In this document: positions 18,401 through 26,857 of the stretch, piece by piece
Layout: every line of letters starts with the position of its first letter
Numbering within the stretch: position 1 is the stretch's first letter
Source: Candidatus Schekmanbacteria bacterium
GTDB taxonomy: Bacteria; CSSED10-310; JACPHN01
Direction: 5' to 3'
Length of the DNA stretch: 48,313 nt
Assembly (NCBI GenBank): GCA_016188575.1
Contig: JACPHN010000009.1
Span: 1 to 48,313 of the forward strand
Made by a program: the position numbers and the translations under genes
The notes under the pieces: generated by a model
Databases searched by the model: none
What the model was told of the DNA's origin: nothing
The model's input: only the letters and a program-made list of their open reading frames with translations

Positions 18401-19171
18401 ATTCTTCTGCTCGAGCAACTGTCCGAGGTCAGTCTCATCGGGCTCGAGATCGAGGCCGGCGTCGCCAGTGAATCCGAGGAGAGCCTGCTGCGGATCAAGT
18501 CCGCGATGCTAGGCGGGCAGTTCCCGGTTGCTGTCGGCCTGCTCTGTCTGGAGCTGGCGCGCGTCACATGTAATCGCGGCGCCTTTCAGCGCGGGCGGGC
18601 GCACGTGTTCGAAGCGCTGCAGGCGTTCCGCAAGGCTCGCGACCGCGAGGGGGAGGCCATGGCGATCGCCGAGATCGGCCATTCGCGCTGGCTGCAGGGT
18701 GATGCCGACGGCGCGGCCGAGGCATTCGAGAAGTCGCTGGCGCTGGCGCATCGCATGAGGCTCGTGCCGCCGACCGGCAGAATCCGGGCATTCAAGGCGC
18801 TGCTGGCACTCGATGCCGGGGTGGCGCCGGCGGAGCTCACTCCCGACATCGTGGCGGCGTTTTCGGCGATGAAACAGGGCGGCATCGGTCGCTACACGGC
18901 CCAGCTTCAGGCCGTGGTGGGGTATCTCGGCGTGCTGAGTGGAGACGCGGATGAGGGCCTGCGCACGCTGGCGCGGGCGATTGACGACGGTCGCGACCGG
19001 CAAGAGCTCAGCAGCGAGCTGCTCGGCGCCGGTTTGCACGCGCTCGCGCTGGCATCGCGCCAGGACCGGGCCGAAGCGGAGCGGGTCGTGAGCAGAACAG
19101 TCGATCGTGCCATCGCCGCAGGCTGGATGGCGTGGGCGCAGCGGCTTCCCGATCTCCTGGGGAGACTGTGA
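15407..19171 (+). CDS. Ser/Thr protein kinase with AAA ATPase and TPR domains (PknK-like layout)
   Basis: A 1,254-residue cytoplasmic kinase-regulator. The kinase domain covers about 11-275: loop GSGTAGVV, K41, HRDLKAEN (D137), DFG (155-157) and SPE in place of APE. All key residues are present, so it is probably active. An ATPase domain follows (about 310-720) with Walker A GETGSGKT (343-350) and Walker B LLIVEDLQEAD (461-471). The remaining ~500 residues are helical TPR-like repeats. The order kinase-ATPase-TPR is that of PknK-type signal integrators, in which the TPR/ATPase part senses a partner. The start is GTG 15,407 with only a weak ribosome binding site. Its stop precedes the next gene's GTG by one base, so the secreted protein downstream is probably co-translated. 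Confidence 0.88.
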   Translation: MNGSTPNNIDRFEVMRICGSGTAGVVYQVRDPQRGCVLALKLLRPAGKKLAQRLRREFLTMQRLHHPQLVAVFDWGTYCDRPYFTMEWVDGQRFSDLFHPADGHSPDAAALRTRVELARQVLNPLAHLHNEGVVHRDLKAENIMVDCLGVVKLLDFGLVKDPEISLGFTLPGALLGTPATMSPEQIEGKQVDARADLYSFGVVLYESCTGRPPIEASSLGNLLLRRVSEPPTPPRSLNPAIDAELEDVLQRLLARDPTSRFSSAFEVADRLDRWLATGEPPAAGRNGAKMTSPPRDLPSSSVAPAGAFFPSLVGRAAELEQVDGILSQVARGKVSACWVMIDGETGSGKTRLATEIGVRAQQVGFRFARGGCGGTRRSLLPFDSIFRSLLVGPGKVLGTTDLEPAVRTALQALAAYLPSLTETAHELDPVPVPALSPVSERHRVIDALAVVIAALARDRGLLLIVEDLQEADELCLSALWHILSRFAKGTPEAESTGTARHRIVVVTTFTPNAATEGPADVGAGDGHSSLCTTTIPGSRYRLVRIELGRLGTMEVQAMVSSMLGGVDVPKFAEWIYGHTGGHPLFVLETVHLLLSEGTLRRRHDGRWVLTVAERPEGDATADELCLPDFPESLYDVIRRRLEQLDPDTKAVLRAAAVIGPVASLELLARATGRDEHDLLWHASALCRAAMLTPLGDYADSFRFDHDMVREVVLGSCPPDERARWHLCAAAALEQAGTEGTAVASEDIAYHYVLADDKVAALPWLLWAATEALASGRNRSCWDLLERSRLLSADTGLSADTELYAELHELSGRVALRMGRFEQAREFLSSALQGATRAGNVALEATLRGSLAECALQAGELTDARHEAEQAVAAARRHGIPQTEGDALYVLARAAAADHQRAEELRLIRAASDAYRTAKDLAGESRALLHLGRAQLDSGQAAWAAGLFRQALALAQQAEDPDTMAWASYRLGEAFRWAGRVVQATAYFRASLTEAQRFGILLLEQLSEVSLIGLEIEAGVASESEESLLRIKSAMLGGQFPVAVGLLCLELARVTCNRGAFQRGRAHVFEALQAFRKARDREGEAMAIAEIGHSRWLQGDADGAAEAFEKSLALAHRMRLVPPTGRIRAFKALLALDAGVAPAELTPDIVAAFSAMKQGGIGRYTAQLQAVVGYLGVLSGDADEGLRTLARAIDDGRDRQELSSELLGAGLHALALASRQDRAEAERVVSRTVDRAIAAGWMAWAQRLPDLLGRL

Positions 19172-19172
19172 A

Positions 19173-20480
19173 GTGGACGGGCTCAGGCGCGGCGCACATC
19201 CCAAAGGTGGTTCGCATCCACTGCTCGCGCCGAACGGCCGGGCGCTACACCAAAGTCTCGTCGCGATGTCCCTGCTCCTGCAGCTCGGGGCGGCAACCGC
19301 GCTGGCGAGCACGGACCCCCCGGCGGGCTTCCGCCTCTTTGCCCCGAACGGCCCGTGGAATCTCCGCGCGGACGAGGCGCCACTGCAGCGCGCCGGCGAT
19401 TACGAGGGCACGCCGACGCACGACTCGGCCGCCTACATCGACTTTCTGGATGAGGTTGTCCAGGAGACGGTGATCGCGACCTCGCGGTGGAGTCTGCCGC
19501 TGCACTTCGTGGACAGCCGTGTGACCCCCGGAATGACTGTCGGGTTTACCGGCGAGGAGGGCTACGATAGTGGATTTCTGATCCGACTCAACCCGGTTCC
19601 CATTCCCGCCGAGGCGGTGTCCGATCCCGGGGAGACCAACCACTATCCACCCAGTCTCTCTGACATCGTTCCCGATCGCGACCTGACGGATGCTCACCTG
19701 TGTATCATTGACGTGAACCGGCAGGTCGAGTACGACTTCTGGCATCTGGTCAAGGACGCGAGCGGCCAGTGGGTGGCCAGTGCGGGGACGTCCATTTCGA
19801 CGACGGGAAGCGGCGTCATCGCCGACGTTCCGCCCGACGAGTTTCTCGATTATGCGCGCGGCACGGCGGTACCGCTGGCGGCTGGCGTGATCCTGCGGCA
19901 GGAGCTGGCCGCGGGTGACATTGCTCATGCGCTGCTCGTAACCATTCCCAGCTCTCGCAACCGCGAGGGGTTCTACGTCTGGCCGGGACTGCGGACGGAC
20001 GGGTATGCGAGCGACTCACGTGCCCTGCCGGAGGGCGCGCGCCTGCGGCTCCGGTGGACCGAGGCAGAAATCGAGGTCAGGTTCCAGGCAGGGGAGATCT
20101 CGGCCGCCGGGCGGACGATCGCCCTGGCGTTGCGCCGGTTTGGCGCCTATGTCGTGGACAACGGCGGCGAAACCCACTTCGGCCTGCAGGCGCAAAACAT
20201 CTCCGACGTGTCGGGCGATCACAACCACGACGCCGGGAGCTACGGCGAGCTGCTCGATCTGGACGAGGACGGCTATGCGTCCGACCTGTGGATGATGCGG
20301 GCGCGGGATTTTGAGGTTGTGGCGTTTGGCTACGGGCGCGAGCTCGCGGCAGTGCCGGCCGCCGGCCCGCGGGCCGCGGCGCTCCTCCTGATCGGATTGG
20401 TGCTGCTTGTGCGCGGCGCTGGACTTGCTACTGCGACTCCAGAGGGAGGAAGGTCGCCGAGCCGATCGGTCCGTACGTAA
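19173..20480 (+). CDS. Secreted beta-rich protein with VPAAG-type C-terminal anchor
   Basis: About 435 residues from GTG 19,173, which has GGGGAG eight to nine bases upstream inside the kinase gene's end. An unusually long N-region leads to a hydrophobic signal (VAMSLLLQLGAATALA) with a likely cleavage after ALA. The body is beta-rich. Conserved-looking features are DVNRQVEYDFWHL, HALLVTIPSSR with FYVWPG, GARLRLRW and RRFGAYVVDNGGETH. I associate these with uncharacterised secreted proteins of actinobacteria and deltaproteobacteria, without a function. The C-terminus reads AVPAAGPRAAALLLIGLVLL then a short basic tail, a sorting-type anchor. The final 140 bases are duplicated at 26,717-26,857. 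Coupling to the kinase suggests a regulator-target or sensor relation, by inference. Confidence 0.7.
   Translation: MDGLRRGAHPKGGSHPLLAPNGRALHQSLVAMSLLLQLGAATALASTDPPAGFRLFAPNGPWNLRADEAPLQRAGDYEGTPTHDSAAYIDFLDEVVQETVIATSRWSLPLHFVDSRVTPGMTVGFTGEEGYDSGFLIRLNPVPIPAEAVSDPGETNHYPPSLSDIVPDRDLTDAHLCIIDVNRQVEYDFWHLVKDASGQWVASAGTSISTTGSGVIADVPPDEFLDYARGTAVPLAAGVILRQELAAGDIAHALLVTIPSSRNREGFYVWPGLRTDGYASDSRALPEGARLRLRWTEAEIEVRFQAGEISAAGRTIALALRRFGAYVVDNGGETHFGLQAQNISDVSGDHNHDAGSYGELLDLDEDGYASDLWMMRARDFEVVAFGYGRELAAVPAAGPRAAALLLIGLVLLVRGAGLATATPEGGRSPSRSVRT
20321..20461. repeat. 141-bp duplicated block, copy 1
   Basis: By eye this matches 26,717-26,857 with four mismatches over 141 bases. On the plus strand it encodes the C-terminal anchor of the 19,173 gene. 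On the minus strand it ends with ten codons, SATFLPLESQ plus stop, that belong to the gene at 26,824-27,849. Confidence 0.92.
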
Positions 20481-21197: not shown

Positions 21198-22040
21198 GGG
21201 CGAAGCGCGATGCCCGCTGGCTCCGCCAGGGAGCAGCTGATCGAGCAGGCACCAGACGGCACGCTGCTCCTCGGCGGACGAGGAGAGCGCATCGTCAACC
21301 GCCACAGCTTCTACGCCGTGTTTTGGTCGCCGGAGGAGTACCGGCCGTTCTCCGGCGGCAAGCTCCTCGGGACCCTGCCCATCACTCAGCCAGTCCAGGT
21401 CGAGATGCACCTCATCTTCGCAGGTCGACGCTGGCAGGTGCTCTCGGTGGAGGAGCAGCAAAAGGTGATCGACCTCGCGCCTTCTCCGGGCGGGAAGGTC
21501 CCGCTCTTCACCGGCTCGCCGGGGCAGGTGCACGACCGGGTGCGCCAGGAGATGCTGCAGGTCTACTTGAACCAGGTCCAACCTCCGGCGTTCCTTGATG
21601 CTCGTGCGAAGGAGCTCTTCCAGGAGGCGAGGGACAACTTCTTCCGGCTTGGCCTCGATCGAACCTGCCTCCTGGGGAGCGGAATGGATTCCCTCTTCTT
21701 CGTGTGGGCCGGCGATCGCGTCCGGAACACGGTCACGACGCTCATGGTCGAGCGCGGGCTCAAGGCGGCGGGCTCCGGGCTCACCATCTCTGTCGCCGGC
21801 CTGGCTCTAGCCGAGCTCGCCGCGCACCTCGAGGCCATCGCCGGCCGCGGGCCCGCGGATGCCCCAACTCTTGCGCGTTCGGTGAAGAACCCGGAGGCCA
21901 ATAAGTACGACGTCTACCTCTCGCCGGAACTGCTGGCCCTGGACTACGCGGCGCGCGAGCTGGAACCCGCGGGTGCCCACAGCCTGGTCAGGCAGCTCGT
22001 CGATTCTGGGTTCAGACCACCGGTGGTGGAGGAGGGATAG
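21198..22040 (+). pseudogene. C-terminal fragment of an Lhr-like DEAD/DEAH helicase
   Basis: About 280 residues without a helicase core. REQLIEQAPDGTLLLGGRGE, VNRHSFYAVFWSPEEYR, the HLIFAGRRWQVLSV segment and the FLDARAKELFQEAR segment are typical of the C-terminal region of large Lhr-like helicases found in bacterial defence islands. The Walker and DEAH motifs are missing. The first possible start, ATG 21,210, is internal to homologous sequence and lacks a good ribosome binding site, so a 5' truncation is clear. The matching N-terminal part of such a helicase lies 3.6 kb downstream at 25,696, after rather than before this piece. The reading frame itself is intact to the stop at 22,040. Confidence 0.65.
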
Positions 22041-22429: not shown

Positions 22430-22630
22430 ATGAGCACAGCCGCCATGACGGTGCAGGAGGTCGCCGAGTACCTGAACGTCGATCCGATTAAGGTGTGCCG
22501 GCTCGTGAATCGCGGGGAGTTGCCCGGGTTCAAGGTGGGCGGTAGCTGGCGGTTCCAGAATAACGACCTCGATGACGGGATCACCAGGCAGAAGGCGGCG
22601 GCAGCCAACAAAGAGGGCGACGAACGATGA
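22430..22630 (+). CDS. Excisionase/MerR-type helix-turn-helix protein
   Basis: 66 residues. TVQEVAEYLNVDPIKVCRLV followed by RGELPGFKVGGSWRF is the HTH_17 (excisionase-family) fold, with the wing residues GxWRF. Such proteins bind DNA as transcription regulators or as recombination directionality factors. No integrase is present in the window, and the gene heads a defence-type operon, so a regulator is more likely. AAGGA lies six bases before ATG 22,430. The chimeric ORF begins 55 bp downstream. Confidence 0.8.
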   Translation: MSTAAMTVQEVAEYLNVDPIKVCRLVNRGELPGFKVGGSWRFQNNDLDDGITRQKAAAANKEGDER

Positions 22631-22685: not shown

Positions 22686-23171
22686 ATGAGCACGGAGCTG
22701 CAGCCGCGCGAGGGCATGATGGCCGTCGTCCGAAACCGCCGCGCCATGATCACCGACGTTCAACCCTACGATGCCGCCGAGCACGGCAGGTTCCACCTGG
22801 TAGAGGTCGACTATACCGATGGCCTGGGCCAGGAGTGCATCGACGCGGCGGCCGCGGACCGGGACGCCGGTATCCGGGCGTTCGCCGCGCAGAACGGCGG
22901 CGACGGCTGGCTGCTGCCGGAGACCCTGCGCCTCGCCGACCACGACCTCGGGCACGACGACCGCGCTCGTCAGCCGCAACCTGCCGCGAGCGCATTGGGG
23001 CCCCGCTTCCTGGACTGGCAGCTCGCGCCGACTCCCGAGGAGAGCTGGGCGGAGTGTGAGCGGCACGCCAAGGCCCTCCTGGAAGGCATGCCGGCCCCCG
23101 CGGTAACCTCCGGTCCCAAGGCACAGGCCCCCCCACCGCCACTGCGCACCCCTATGGACGAGGAAGCGTAG
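22686..23171 (+). pseudogene. Chimeric remnant: SNF2-helicase-like start joined to methylase-like C-terminus
   Basis: An open 161-residue frame in two unrelated parts. Residues 1-43 (MMAVVRNRRAMITDVQPYD, then HLVEVDYTDGLGQ) resemble the N-terminus of SNF2-type helicases of the DrmD kind. Residues about 70-130 (WLLPETLRLADHDLGHDDRA and GPRFLDWQLAPTPEESW) resemble the C-terminal end of Eco57I-type DNA methylases seen in defence loci. Neither has a catalytic core. An internal deletion joining the start of one gene to the end of the next explains this. Family assignments are from memory and moderate. Its stop is eight bases before the AAA gene start, and it could still be translated. Confidence 0.45.
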
Positions 23172-23179
23172 GAGTCCAC

Positions 23180-24517
23180 ATGTTCAAGAAGCTCTATCTC
23201 CGCAACATGAAGGTCTGGGGCGACCAGCTCTGGGACGAGGGCGTCGAGGTGGCGCCCGTGACGCTGCTGCTCGGTGCGAACAGCGCAGGCAAGACCTCCA
23301 TCCTGCAGCTCCCCCTGCTGCTGAAGCAGACTTTCGAGTCACCGGACCGGCACCTCGATCTCAACCTCGGCGGCCAGCAGACCGACATCGTGGATCTCGG
23401 TACGTACAAGGACCTGATCCACGGCCACGACACGAGCCGAGAGTTGGGGCTCGGGATCGAGGCCGAGGTCCCGGGCACGCCCCTGGTATCGCTGTCCTAC
23501 CGGGTGACCTACACGCTGGCCGCTGGCGCTCCGGTCGTCCAGCAGCTCGATCTGACCGAAGACGATCAGACCTACGGAGTGGAGCGCCAGTCCAAGGGCG
23601 GGTATCGGCTCCATGCGCCAGAATACGAGTCCCGAATGAGGGGCCAGCGCCGCGATGCGCGGCGCAGTTTCCAGCCCGAGCGGTCGCTGATGTTCTCGAC
23701 CGAGGCGCTGGCCGAGTTGGGCCGGGACGGCAGCCACGTCCAGGATCTCGCGCTGCGCGTCATGAAGGTGATGGGCTCGCTCACGTACCTCGGCCCGCTG
23801 CGCGAGCGCCCCGTGCGCAGCTACATGTGGAGTTGCCAGAGCCCCGGAGAGATCGGGAGCCGCGGCGAGCGCGCCGTGCATGCACTGTTGGCGAGCGCAA
23901 ACGCCCGGACGAAGCGCAAGGAGGGCGAGGAAGGTGGCCAGGGCTGGCTGGTCGAGAAGGTGTCGGAGTGGCTGGCGAGGATGGGCGTCGCCGATGCGCT
24001 CGTCCCGGAACGTCAGGGCCGCTCCCGCTTCTTCGAGGTCATCATCGAGGGCGAAGGACACCGCGCGAACATCATGGACGTCGGCTTCGGAGTGTCGCAG
24101 GTGCTCCCGCTGCTTGTTCTCGCCTACTTCGTGCCCAGAGGAGCCACGATCATCGCTGAGCAGCCGGAGATTCACCTGCACCCGCGCGCGCAGGTTGGGC
24201 TTGCCGAGCTGATGGTGGAGGTCTCCCGCGAGCGGGGGGTGCAGTTCCTCGTCGAGACGCACTCCGAGCACATCTTCCGCAGGCTGCAGTTCCTCATCGC
24301 CGACCAGAAGCTGACCAGGGACAAGTGCCGTCTCTACTTCGTCGATCGGCCGAAAGGACGGGCCGCCGAGCTGCGCCGTTTGAATGTGGACGACTTCGGG
24401 CGCGTCGCCGAGTGGCCCGAGCGCTTCTTCGGGGACGCTGCCGGCGAGACGGAGCGGCAGATGCGTCGCATGATGGCGCGTCTGCGAGCTGGCGAGGGCA
24501 GGGGCGACGGTGGCTGA
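23180..24517 (+). CDS. DUF3696-type AAA (OLD-like/SMC-like) ATPase
   Basis: A 445-residue ABC/SMC-class ATPase. Walker A GANSAGKTS (32-40), signature-like DVGFGVSQVLP (300-310), Walker B TIIAEQPEIHLHP (323-335) and the H-loop VETHSEHIFRR (358-368) are all intact. The C-terminal VDDFGRVAEWPERFF matches the DUF3696 tail. No TOPRIM nuclease domain is attached, so the nuclease is probably the PIN protein encoded next. The start at ATG 23,180 is supported by TAGGAG five bases upstream. The last eight bases overlap the PIN gene, implying coupled translation and probably a complex. Related ATPases act as sensors and assembly platforms in several anti-phage systems. Confidence 0.9.
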   Translation: MFKKLYLRNMKVWGDQLWDEGVEVAPVTLLLGANSAGKTSILQLPLLLKQTFESPDRHLDLNLGGQQTDIVDLGTYKDLIHGHDTSRELGLGIEAEVPGTPLVSLSYRVTYTLAAGAPVVQQLDLTEDDQTYGVERQSKGGYRLHAPEYESRMRGQRRDARRSFQPERSLMFSTEALAELGRDGSHVQDLALRVMKVMGSLTYLGPLRERPVRSYMWSCQSPGEIGSRGERAVHALLASANARTKRKEGEEGGQGWLVEKVSEWLARMGVADALVPERQGRSRFFEVIIEGEGHRANIMDVGFGVSQVLPLLVLAYFVPRGATIIAEQPEIHLHPRAQVGLAELMVEVSRERGVQFLVETHSEHIFRRLQFLIADQKLTRDKCRLYFVDRPKGRAAELRRLNVDDFGRVAEWPERFFGDAAGETERQMRRMMARLRAGEGRGDGG

Positions 24518-25013
24518 TCACATCATTGATACCAACGTGCTCCTGGTTGCAAGTGCCGCGCATCCCCACTCGCCGTTCGGAGACTCGGACCTGCCCCGGG
24601 AGCTCCAGGAGGCGGTCTTCGAGTGGCTCGCCGCGTTCCGTCGCGATTCGGCCCGCACCATGGTGTGGGACGAGCTGTGGAGGATCTACGACGAGTACCG
24701 CCGCAAGCTCACCGACCAGGACTATGGGCTTCAGGTCGTCACCGAGAAGATGGCGACCGCGCGGTTCGTGGCCGTGGGCTACGACGGCGACGGCGCGGCG
24801 GTCCTGCCGGCCGGCTTCGCTGCGTTCGATCCGTCAGACCGCAAGTTTTTGGCGGCCCTCCTGGCCGATGGCGGCGCAAGTACGCTCGTCAACGCGACCG
24901 ACACCGACTGGCTCGAGATCGAGGCGGAGATCGCAGCGGCGGGCCGCACGGTGCAACACCTCGTCGAAGACTGGCTTCGAGTCAAGTACGCCGAAAATAC
25001 AGGCAGGTTATGA
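24510..25013 (+). CDS. PIN-domain ribonuclease
   Basis: 167 residues from GTG 24,510, inside the end of the AAA gene. The acidic metal site of PIN nucleases is visible: D7 in HIIDTNVLL, E55 in VWDELWRIY, D110 in FDPSDRKFLA, and D131/D133 in NATDTDWLE. PIN domains usually cut single-stranded RNA, tRNA or mRNA. It is not paired with a VapB-like antitoxin. Its partners are an ATPase upstream and an RNA ligase whose ATG overlaps its TGA. This suggests that nuclease activity is gated by the ATPase and may be reversed by the ligase. The target RNA is unknown. Confidence 0.85.
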   Translation: MADHIIDTNVLLVASAAHPHSPFGDSDLPRELQEAVFEWLAAFRRDSARTMVWDELWRIYDEYRRKLTDQDYGLQVVTEKMATARFVAVGYDGDGAAVLPAGFAAFDPSDRKFLAALLADGGASTLVNATDTDWLEIEAEIAAAGRTVQHLVEDWLRVKYAENTGRL

Positions 25014-25705
25014 CCGACTTCTTCCGCTTCCCCCACACCCCGCACCTGGCGTGGCAGGGCGAAGGTCAACCGCGCGACGACAAGATCCTCTCGTCTGACG
25101 AGGTTGCCGGCCTGCTGTCCGGGGACCTGGTGGTGGAGGAGAAGATCGACGGGGCGAACCTGGGCTTCTCGGTCAGCGAGGATGGCGATCTGCGCGCCCA
25201 GAACCGTGGCGACTACCTGGCGCGCGATCATTGCCACGCGCAGTTCCGGCCGCTCCGGTCCTGGCTAGGTCCACGTGAGCATGCGCTCATCGACGCACTC
25301 TGGCCCGACTTGATGCTCTTCGGCGAGTGGTGCGTGGCCGTACACAGCGTCCAGTATGATCGGCTGCCCGACTGGTTTCTCGGTTTCGACGTCTACGACA
25401 GAGCTGAGGGCTACTTCTGGGACACGAGGCGGCGAGACATGTTTTTGGTCAAGCTCGGGCTCGCCTCCGTACCCCGCCTGGCGACGGGCCAGTTCTCCCT
25501 GGAAGCGCTCGTGGCGCTGCTGGATGGCTCGCGGGTTGGCAGCGCTCCCATGGAGGGCCTGGTGGTCCGGCGCGAGGCGGACGGCTGGACCGCGGCTCGC
25601 GCCAAGCTGGTCCGCGCGAGCTTCGCACAGAGCATCGAGGAGCACTGGTCGAGAGGCTCGCAGCGGCGCAACGCGCTCGCCGGAGGCACATCCCCATGGC
25701 ACTGA
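25010..25705 (+). CDS. ATP-dependent RNA ligase (Rnl family, PF09414-like)
   Basis: 231 residues with the nucleotidyltransferase motifs of RNA ligases: motif I EKIDGANLGFS (adenylated K45), motif III-like LFGEWC (104-108), motif IV EGLVVRR (182-188) and motif V AKLVR (198-202). The KIDGAN spacing and small size fit RNA repair ligases of the Rnl2/DraRnl kind rather than DNA ligases. DNA ligases would add an OB fold, which is absent. The family seals 3'-OH/5'-phosphate ends after self-adenylation. The start overlaps the PIN stop (ATGA), and the stop overlaps the helicase remnant start by ten bases, so all were translated as one unit. A role in repairing PIN-cut RNA is inference. Confidence 0.88.
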   Translation: MTDFFRFPHTPHLAWQGEGQPRDDKILSSDEVAGLLSGDLVVEEKIDGANLGFSVSEDGDLRAQNRGDYLARDHCHAQFRPLRSWLGPREHALIDALWPDLMLFGEWCVAVHSVQYDRLPDWFLGFDVYDRAEGYFWDTRRRDMFLVKLGLASVPRLATGQFSLEALVALLDGSRVGSAPMEGLVVRREADGWTAARAKLVRASFAQSIEEHWSRGSQRRNALAGGTSPWH

Positions 25706-26499
25706 ATCCCGTCGCCTTCACCGCGTCCGTCGTCGACGACTTCCTTCGCTATCAGCTCACGACTTACACGCTGGCGGACGTGGACCTGTACGCGCAGATG
25801 CAGGGGCTGCTCTCGCTCGACGTGTCCCGCGACACCCCGCTGCGCGCGGGTCCCTTCATCAGCCTGTCGAAGCCCTTCAAGCAGGGCGATGCCATCGAGA
25901 GCCTGGTCACCGAGGGCATCTTCCACCCGCATATGGAGACGCTGGTCCCGTACCCAAACCTCCGAGCGCACCAAGCCAGGGCCATTCGGGCCATCCACCA
26001 GGGGAAGCACGCCCTGGTCGCACGGGTACCGGCTCAGCCAAGACCGAGGCCTTCCTCTACCCGATCATCAGCCGCTGCCTGGAGACGAGGGACGAGCTTG
26101 CCGTTCCCGGCATCGCAGCGGTGCTCGTCTACCCGATGAACGCCCTGGCCGCGGACCAGCTCGACCGGCTCCGAGGGTTGTTGGCCGACAGCGGGATCCC
26201 CTTCGGCATGCACGTGGGCAAGACCCCGGAGAAGGAGGCTCAGGTCGAAGGCGAGCGACTGCCGGCGGGCAGCTCCCGCCGACTACCTCGCCCGCCTGGC
26301 GCAGCTCCGCGAAGCAGGCCAGGCGACCGTCCTGCGCCCGCCCGAGGAATGCGCCAGCCGCGAGGTCATACGAAAGCCCGGCGGCCAGCCGCGCATCCTG
26401 CTCACGAACACCAAGATGCTCGAGCTGCCGCTAACCCGCGGCAAGGACGTGCACCTCTTCGACGACGCGCCGCTCGCGCTCCCGGTCTACGACCAATAG
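25696..26499 (+). pseudogene. N-terminal part of an Lhr-like helicase, two frameshifts, truncated at the DEAH box
   Basis: It starts at ATG 25,696 with CGGAGG upstream, and LRAHQARAIRAIHQGKHALVA leads to Walker A. One base appears lost near 26,024 (GTCGCACGG where GTCGCCACGG is expected), after which TGTGSAKTEAFLYPIISRCL and VYPMNALAADQLDRLRGLL continue in another frame. A second shift near 26,275 leads to ADYLARLAQLREAG and PRILLTNTKMLELPLTRGKD. The sequence stops at LPVYDQ-stop, exactly where VFDEAHT would normally begin. Walker A reads GTGSAKTE rather than GSGKT. The gene cannot make a working helicase. Confidence 0.75.
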
Positions 26500-26716
26500 C
26501 GATGGGACTGGCGGCACAGGCGCTCGGATAAAACGGATGCCGCTTCCGGCCCCCCCGCTTGCGGGGAGAGGGTCGGGGTGGGGGGCGGACAGTGGCGGGC
26601 TCGCCGTTGTTCCCCTCTCCGGGATTCCCCCAGTGAGCGGTGGAGGGTCATTGCCCGCTGCCACTCCTTATCCGGGCGCTTATGGGGCGAGGAGGGGGTG
26701 ACGAATTCGAAGGTGC
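26500..26716. other. Gene-free junction at the right edge of the island
   Basis: 217 bp of GC-rich sequence with a CCCCCCGCTTGCGGGGAGAG inverted repeat near 26,549, a type of repeat common between genes. No product is recognised. It separates the helicase remnant from duplicated block copy 2. Confidence 0.45.
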
Positions 26717-26857
26717 GGCGTTTGGCTACGGGCGCGAGCTTGTGGCAGTGCCGGCCGCCGGCCCGCGGGCCGCGGCGCTCCTCCTGATCGGATTGGTGCT
26801 GCTTGTCCGCGGCGCTGGATTTGCTACTGCGACTCCAGAGGGAGGAAGGTCGCCGAG
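26717..26857. repeat. 141-bp duplicated block, copy 2
   Basis: Matches 20,321-20,461 with four mismatches. The plus strand still encodes VPAAGPRAAALLLIGLVLLV, but no upstream secreted gene is present. The minus strand is the genuine 3' end of the 26,824 gene. The original locus therefore probably held two convergent genes overlapping here. Confidence 0.92.

Follow-up and report, generated by a model that had tools for sequence, protein, structure and literature searches.

A widespread ATPase, PIN nuclease and RNA ligase cassette as a candidate anti-phage defence with a possible RNA repair arm of its own

INTRODUCTION

Why should a gene for an enzyme that joins RNA overlap a gene for an enzyme presumed to cut it? 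This question is raised by three genes at positions 23180 to 25705 of a contig from Candidatus Schekmanbacteria (JACPHN010000009.1), of which a stretch of 48,313 nucleotides, here called the window, was analyzed. RNA ligases in this field are best known as phage counter-defences that undo tRNA cutting by the host. PIN nucleases depend on metal ions, and the ends that they produce carry a 5'-phosphate and a 3'-hydroxyl. For an ATP-dependent ligase precisely these two groups are required; other ends call for a kinase and a phosphatase (PMC7824862). In the PARIS system the nuclease AriB is sequestered by AriA and, once released, cuts tRNA and leaves a 3'-hydroxyl, with a 5'-phosphate expected on the other side (PMC12409363).

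RESULTS

The cassette is the intact unit of a decayed defence island

The first gene (23180..24517, plus strand) encodes a 445-aa AAA/ABC-type ATPase with a C-terminal DUF3696 (Pfam), which was assigned to the HEC-03B family by PADLOC. It is followed by the GTG-started gene of a 167-aa PIN-domain nuclease of the HEC-03A family (24510..25013, plus strand), the presumed RNase effector, assigned by the HEC-03A match, motifs and a structural model, and by the gene of a 231-aa minimal ATP-dependent RNA ligase (25010..25705, plus strand; Pfam PF09414). All three reading frames are open and intact, with overlaps of 8 nt (ATPase/PIN) and 4 nt (PIN/ligase), just as an earlier sequence-only reading had described them. 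The ATPase, PIN and ligase genes are under purifying selection, dN/dS being mostly 0.03-0.18 in close pairs for each of the three.

Among the recognisable defence genes of the surrounding decayed island, the cassette is the only intact unit. Upstream, the C-terminal piece of a SngC/BrxH-like helicase (21210..22040, plus strand; PADLOC SngC, 1.9e-64, profile positions 466-718 of 720) and that of a type IIG restriction enzyme-methyltransferase (22686..23171, plus strand; PADLOC REase_MTase_IIG, profile positions 1420-1499 of 1524) were found. Between them lies the gene of a small HTH_17/excisionase-like, MAD1-like protein (22430..22630, plus strand; HTH_17 at 2e-12, MAD1 score under its NCBIfam cut-off), a possible regulator of the island. 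Downstream, an ORF starting at 25696 overlaps the ligase gene by 10 nt. Three-frame translation showed it to be a frameshifted and truncated pseudogene (25696..26499, plus strand) for the N-terminal portion of a helicase resembling DruE of Druantia, with a weak PADLOC DruE match for the ORF itself (P0004) and one of 1.3e-16 for its shifted frame. The first 21 codons of this ORF match the start of the post-ligase gene in locus L003 to 81%; a similar gene start after the ligase is seen only there, at a contig end. As a frameshifted, truncated helicase, the ORF is ruled out as a fourth working component of the cassette. Both this ORF and the two C-terminal fragments upstream had been overlooked in the sequence-only reading.

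The whole island is enclosed by a 155-nt direct repeat with a left copy at 20307..20461 and a right copy at 26703..26857 (both plus strand, 94% identity in a repeat search). The copies repeat the last part of the gene at 19107-20480, which codes for a hydrophobic VPAAGP tail, as if the island had been inserted at this gene and had duplicated its end.

The three proteins

In the ATPase, Pfam detects AAA_15, AAA_21 and DUF3696, in agreement with the proposed DUF3696-type ATPase, and no Toprim domain; AAA and DUF3696 alone make up the 445 residues. The PADLOC model HEC-03B matches residues 1-427 at 7.7e-92. Among 61 homologues, G32, N34, S35, G37 and K38 (Walker A), E327, P329, E330, H332 and H334, and H361, S362 and E363 are invariant; the Walker A, EQPE and ETHSEH motifs vary hardly or not at all. 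Relatives with solved structures are OLD, the retron/Septu protein PtuA and PARIS AriA, whose PADLOC match is partial (1.9e-19, residues 285-365) and far exceeded by that of HEC-03B. The ATPase also matches NsnB of Menshen at 1.7e-54 (PADLOC). A Menshen system is ruled out, as NsnA and NsnC are missing and neither the PIN protein nor the ligase matches any Nsn model in PADLOC, and so is MADS, the ATPase reaching 42.9 bits against a NCBIfam cut-off of 420 for MAD3. The ATPase is presumed to be the sensor and gate. At three Aquabacterium loci (L043, L046 and L049) the ATPase frame is short (331 aa) and a tblastn match is confined to its C-terminal part, the PIN and ligase genes being intact.

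The second protein is harder to recognise. Pfam gave no PIN match for the window protein and found PIN_3 in two only of 65 homologues, and a search of PDB sequences with the PIN profile returned no matches. HEC-03A matches the window protein at 3.4e-11 and also six of six further homologues tested (PADLOC). Residues D54, D110 and D131 are invariant among the 65 homologues, and D7 and E62 are present in at least 90% of them. An AlphaFold (AF2) model of high confidence (pLDDT 95.4) yielded no significant PIN match with Foldseek alone (E > 0.02). In a second structural comparison its best match was VapC21 (Z 10.2, 119 residues, rmsd 2.7), other matches being further VapC toxins as well as PIN RNases and PIN domains that act on RNA. 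The assignment as a putative PIN nuclease rests on the HEC-03A match, the motifs and the predicted model, which together bear out the PIN nuclease with an acidic site that had been read from the sequence. Its role as RNase effector is presumed.

The third protein carries no PADLOC or NCBIfam name, but is matched by Pfam RNA_ligase at 6e-32 and has, as proposed, a KIDG motif I at K45. K45, D47 and G48, E106, F126-D127, E182 and G183, and K199 are invariant in 66 sequences, solo ligases included, as are motifs I (KxDG), III, IIIa, IV and V. The AF2 model (pLDDT 92.7) is most similar to Naegleria Rnl, an Rnl5 enzyme (Z 17.2, 189 residues, rmsd 2.9), followed by T4 Rnl2 (Z 15.9) and trypanosome REL1 (Z 15.1); DNA ligases rank lower. 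These three enzymes have the ligase fold and motifs in common with the cassette protein, but their identity to it is only ~16-19%, and the additional domain that they carry at the N or C terminus is missing from it, as it consists of the nucleotidyltransferase domain only, without accessory, DNA-binding or OB domain. By motifs and model it is thus a predicted RNA ligase of the Rnl5/Rnl2 type. The residues singled out in the sequence-only reading, D7 (PIN protein), K38 (ATPase) and K45 (ligase), all proved to be conserved across their families.

The three genes travel together

The ligase, used as query in a genome-wide scan, retrieved 80 loci, from which HMMs were built. In 71 of these, ATPase, PIN and ligase genes follow one another in the same order and on the same strand. 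The remaining nine comprise three cut by contig ends, two with PIN and ligase but no ATPase (L042:6309-7521 and L056:9241-10408, the ligase frame of the latter being truncated) and four, all alphaproteobacterial, with the ligase alone. Hosts with a nameable phylum belong to at least 8 phyla; a search of complete E. coli genomes with a single query, taken from a viral contig, did not detect the cassette. The reverse test started from the PADLOC HEC-03B model, which is blind to the ligase, and covered ~1,480 genomes of five phyla; with the seed genomes left out, the ligase adjoins the PIN gene in 27 of the 37 ATPase-PIN loci counted. A chance neighbourhood is ruled out by these counts. An ordinary VapBC pair is likewise ruled out, as there is no antitoxin gene and the PIN neighbours are an ATPase and a ligase in the 71 loci. 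The possibility left by the sequence-only reading that the three genes never meet elsewhere has thus given way to a common arrangement.

In a tree built from 105 ATPase sequences, the systems without a ligase comprise one clade of six, on which the PADLOC HEC-03B model scores top, and three isolated losses. As only four changes on this tree account for the presence of the ligase, the ligase-bearing form is a stable subtype, with the two-gene form as its sister group.

The ligase is exchanged between two ATPase-PIN lineages

Patristic distances of ATPase and PIN proteins are tightly correlated (r=0.94), whereas those of the ligase correlate with ATPase and PIN distances by only 0.14 and 0.06, respectively. 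The ATPase tree divides into clades I, which contains the window protein, and II, and the PIN tree reproduces this split with one change. The ligase tree requires 17 changes, close to the mean of 21 after shuffling, and the split is rejected for the ligase (AU p ~1e-47). Pairs of cassettes across the clades reach up to 84% identity in the ligase as compared to ~31% in PIN and ~38% in the ATPase. ATPase and PIN evolve as a single partnership, and the two ancient lineages of this pair exchange the ligase with almost no restriction. Between L037:10000-10718 and L016:2840-3558, similarity at the DNA level starts one base before the ligase start codon, which by sequence comparison reads as a module exchange with its breakpoint at the gene boundary.

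Because of this nearly free re-assortment and the breakpoint at the start codon, the ligase probably has the RNA product as its substrate rather than working within a dedicated complex. Furthermore, since it is absent from the six systems of the sister clade and has been lost in three others, the ligase serves the cutting arm as an accessory and is dispensable for the core function. In nearly all members of clades I and II it is nonetheless found directly 3' of the PIN gene, often with an overlap of 4 or 8 nt.

Defence genes and mobile elements surround the cassette

An enrichment in defence islands, proposed earlier as a check, was indeed found. At a threshold of 1e-30, the 99 proteins flanking the cassette matched 89 PADLOC families, as compared to 2 for 86 control proteins drawn from randomly chosen stretches in four genomes with the cassette; the family count is inflated by overlapping helicase models and stems from about a dozen different proteins. 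The matches include SNF2 helicases of the DISARM/Dpd/Hma type, type IIG enzymes, BREX genes and restriction-modification genes. At about ten loci (among them L013, L021, L022, L002 and L037) a SNF2 helicase and a type IIG enzyme with methyltransferase precede the cassette, sometimes with an HNH nuclease behind it. This recurrent larger layout may represent a cassette embedded in a Hma/R-M-like system, of which the window would retain only the methyltransferase tail. The flanking set (A4) also holds one RlaP, an RNA-repair nucleotidyltransferase, and two QueH proteins of tRNA queuosine synthesis, too few to interpret.

The cassette is also plasmid-borne, in Azotobacter on a mobilizable plasmid and in Aeromonas on conjugative ones, there beside AbiEii and a GASH system. 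On two viral contigs (L108 and L109) the cassette lies directly behind an apparently P4-type integrase, and at L106 in a prophage fragment with portal and terminase genes of putative P2 type, labels that were read from the integrase sequence and PHROG families. P4 integrases and P2 flanks are known defence hotspots, in one of which PARIS was found. Other loci have ordinary neighbours, e.g. ATP synthase genes, and the cassette thus also occurs outside islands. That the cassette is a mobile anti-phage defence unit is well supported, albeit indirectly.

DISCUSSION

A proposed mechanism and its alternatives

The mechanism that we propose begins with the DUF3696 ATPase, which would sense infection and keep the PIN nuclease inactive until triggered; such gating is suggested by the family of the ATPase and its tight co-evolution with PIN. 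The target of the released nuclease would be a structured host RNA, with tRNA as the likeliest candidate, and the cut ends, a 5'-phosphate and a 3'-hydroxyl, could be resealed by a ligase of the Rnl5/Rnl2 type without a kinase or phosphatase. Resealing would limit the toxicity of leaks and let survivors recover. We favour this order of release, cutting and resealing because the end chemistry of PIN nuclease and ligase matches, because neither kinase nor phosphatase is found in the cassette and because PARIS provides a precedent. Both the chemistry and the anatomy are in keeping with an RNase gated by an ATPase and a ligase that reseals its cuts. The RNA target and the purpose of the ligase, be it leak protection, recovery or general RNA repair, are what we infer. 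Taken as a whole, an ATPase-gated PIN RNase cassette against phages, the cuts of which are resealed by its own ligase, is the best explanation, and we give it an even chance. We are more tentative, and somewhat short of an even chance, in suggesting a defence with its own RNA repair arm, in which the gated PIN RNase stops translation and the cassette ligase makes the shutdown reversible, as the first anti-phage system of this kind. With similar reserve, we consider as part of this suggestion that diverging sensor-nuclease pairs have been swapped onto a ligase gene that serves as a conserved, exchangeable module.

The ATPase-PIN pair (HEC-03) might also be the whole defence, with a hitch-hiking ligase that repairs RNA damage by phage nucleases or host RNases in general and not specifically PIN cuts. 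The two-gene clade and the three losses agree with this, as do the ligase tree, nearly random with respect to the ATPase-PIN clades (17 changes vs 21 shuffled), and the solo ligases at four alphaproteobacterial loci. However, the ligase has been kept directly after PIN, often overlapping, in nearly all members of clades I and II, its exchange amounts to replacement by another ligase and not to loss, and PIN ends suit this ligase, which leaves hitch-hiking unlikely but worth serious consideration. The pairing of a cutter with a joiner, including the two PIN-ligase loci without ATPase, could instead point to ATPase-gated cut-and-join RNA processing (splicing, circularising or tagging), the joined product being an effector or signal; a dedicated machine of this sort is improbable given a clade with ATPase and PIN but no ligase and the free exchange of the ligase.

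The nucleases gated by OLD-type ATPases are usually DNA nucleases, and the fold lists contain some DNA ligases at lower ranks, which would suit an OLD-style DNA restriction or repair system with a FEN-like PIN protein acting on DNA and a ligase sealing DNA or DNA-RNA nicks. The top matches of the ligase are, however, RNA ligases by sequence as well as by fold, it has no DNA-binding or OB domain, and the PIN protein is matched by VapC toxins and by other PIN domains that act on RNA; we regard a DNA substrate as very improbable. Finally, a bare nucleotidyltransferase domain without any accessory domain might act in counter-counter-defence or as a regulatory adenylyltransferase, e.g. by 5'-adenylating cut RNA, and not seal at all. 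This we find very unlikely, since none of the sealing motifs (I, III, IIIa, IV and V) varies and T4 Rnl2-type and Rnl5-type enzymes have this core as well.

Relation to known systems

The closest relative of the cassette is HEC-03, a candidate system in PADLOC-DB with the same two adjacent families, HEC-03A (PIN) and HEC-03B (DUF3696 ATPase). As listed it has two genes and no ligase, whereas in the cassette a ligase gene overlaps the PIN gene by 4 nt; literature searches retrieved no experimental report on HEC-03. PARIS is similar in that a gene for an AAA_15-type ABC ATPase directly precedes a nuclease gene, and in that cutting to 5'-phosphate and 3'-hydroxyl ends is expected. Moreover, PARIS lives in the P4-type integrase niche that the cassette occupies in L108 and L109. 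The effector differs, AriB being a Toprim protein and that of the cassette a predicted PIN fold, with an RNA ligase as third gene. In OLD and Gabija, Toprim is fused to the ATPase, unlike in the cassette. VapBC has the PIN fold in common with it, VapC being the best structural match, but the cassette lacks a VapB-like antitoxin, and its 167-aa PIN protein is partnered with an ATPase.

The sequence-only reading had drawn an analogy to the anticodon nucleases PrrC and RloC and the T4 repair pair Pnkp/Rnl1. It holds insofar as ATPase-gated RNA cutting would be combined with an RNA ligase able to reverse it, and fails insofar as the ends left by those cutters need a kinase/phosphatase, which is absent here. 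Furthermore, the cassette has a separate PIN protein instead of a HEPN-type nuclease, and its ligase is Rnl5/Rnl2-like and encoded by the host instead of the phage. The novelty claimed for the trio stands in part: the ATPase-PIN pair is already PADLOC HEC-03, but no description of the three genes as a conserved system was found in literature searches, PADLOC 2.0.0 or NCBIfam 2026, although a mention in work on Menshen polymorphism or RNA repair in conflict is possible. New is therefore the trio, with possibly a new principle, a self-encoded repair arm, within the known ATPase-gated RNase defence.

Should the proposed mechanism be true, hosts would build the undo step into the weapon itself, with cutter and matching ligase in one widespread cassette. 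The low carrying cost of abortive RNases would be explained, and reversible dormancy would be directly testable by single catalytic mutants. For HEC-03, listed in databases as two genes, the cassette provides a three-gene definition.

Related ligases were also seen in other settings. The solo ligases at L012:9331-10693 and L062:9347-10693 have a conserved divergent neighbour that resembles a macro (ADP-ribose) domain, possibly a separate RNA-repair pair in Alphaproteobacteria. A ligase that is more distant, found on a plasmid of Pseudomonas aeruginosa (L100:5956-7974), is accompanied by a different AAA ATPase, possibly a kinase, and no PIN protein.
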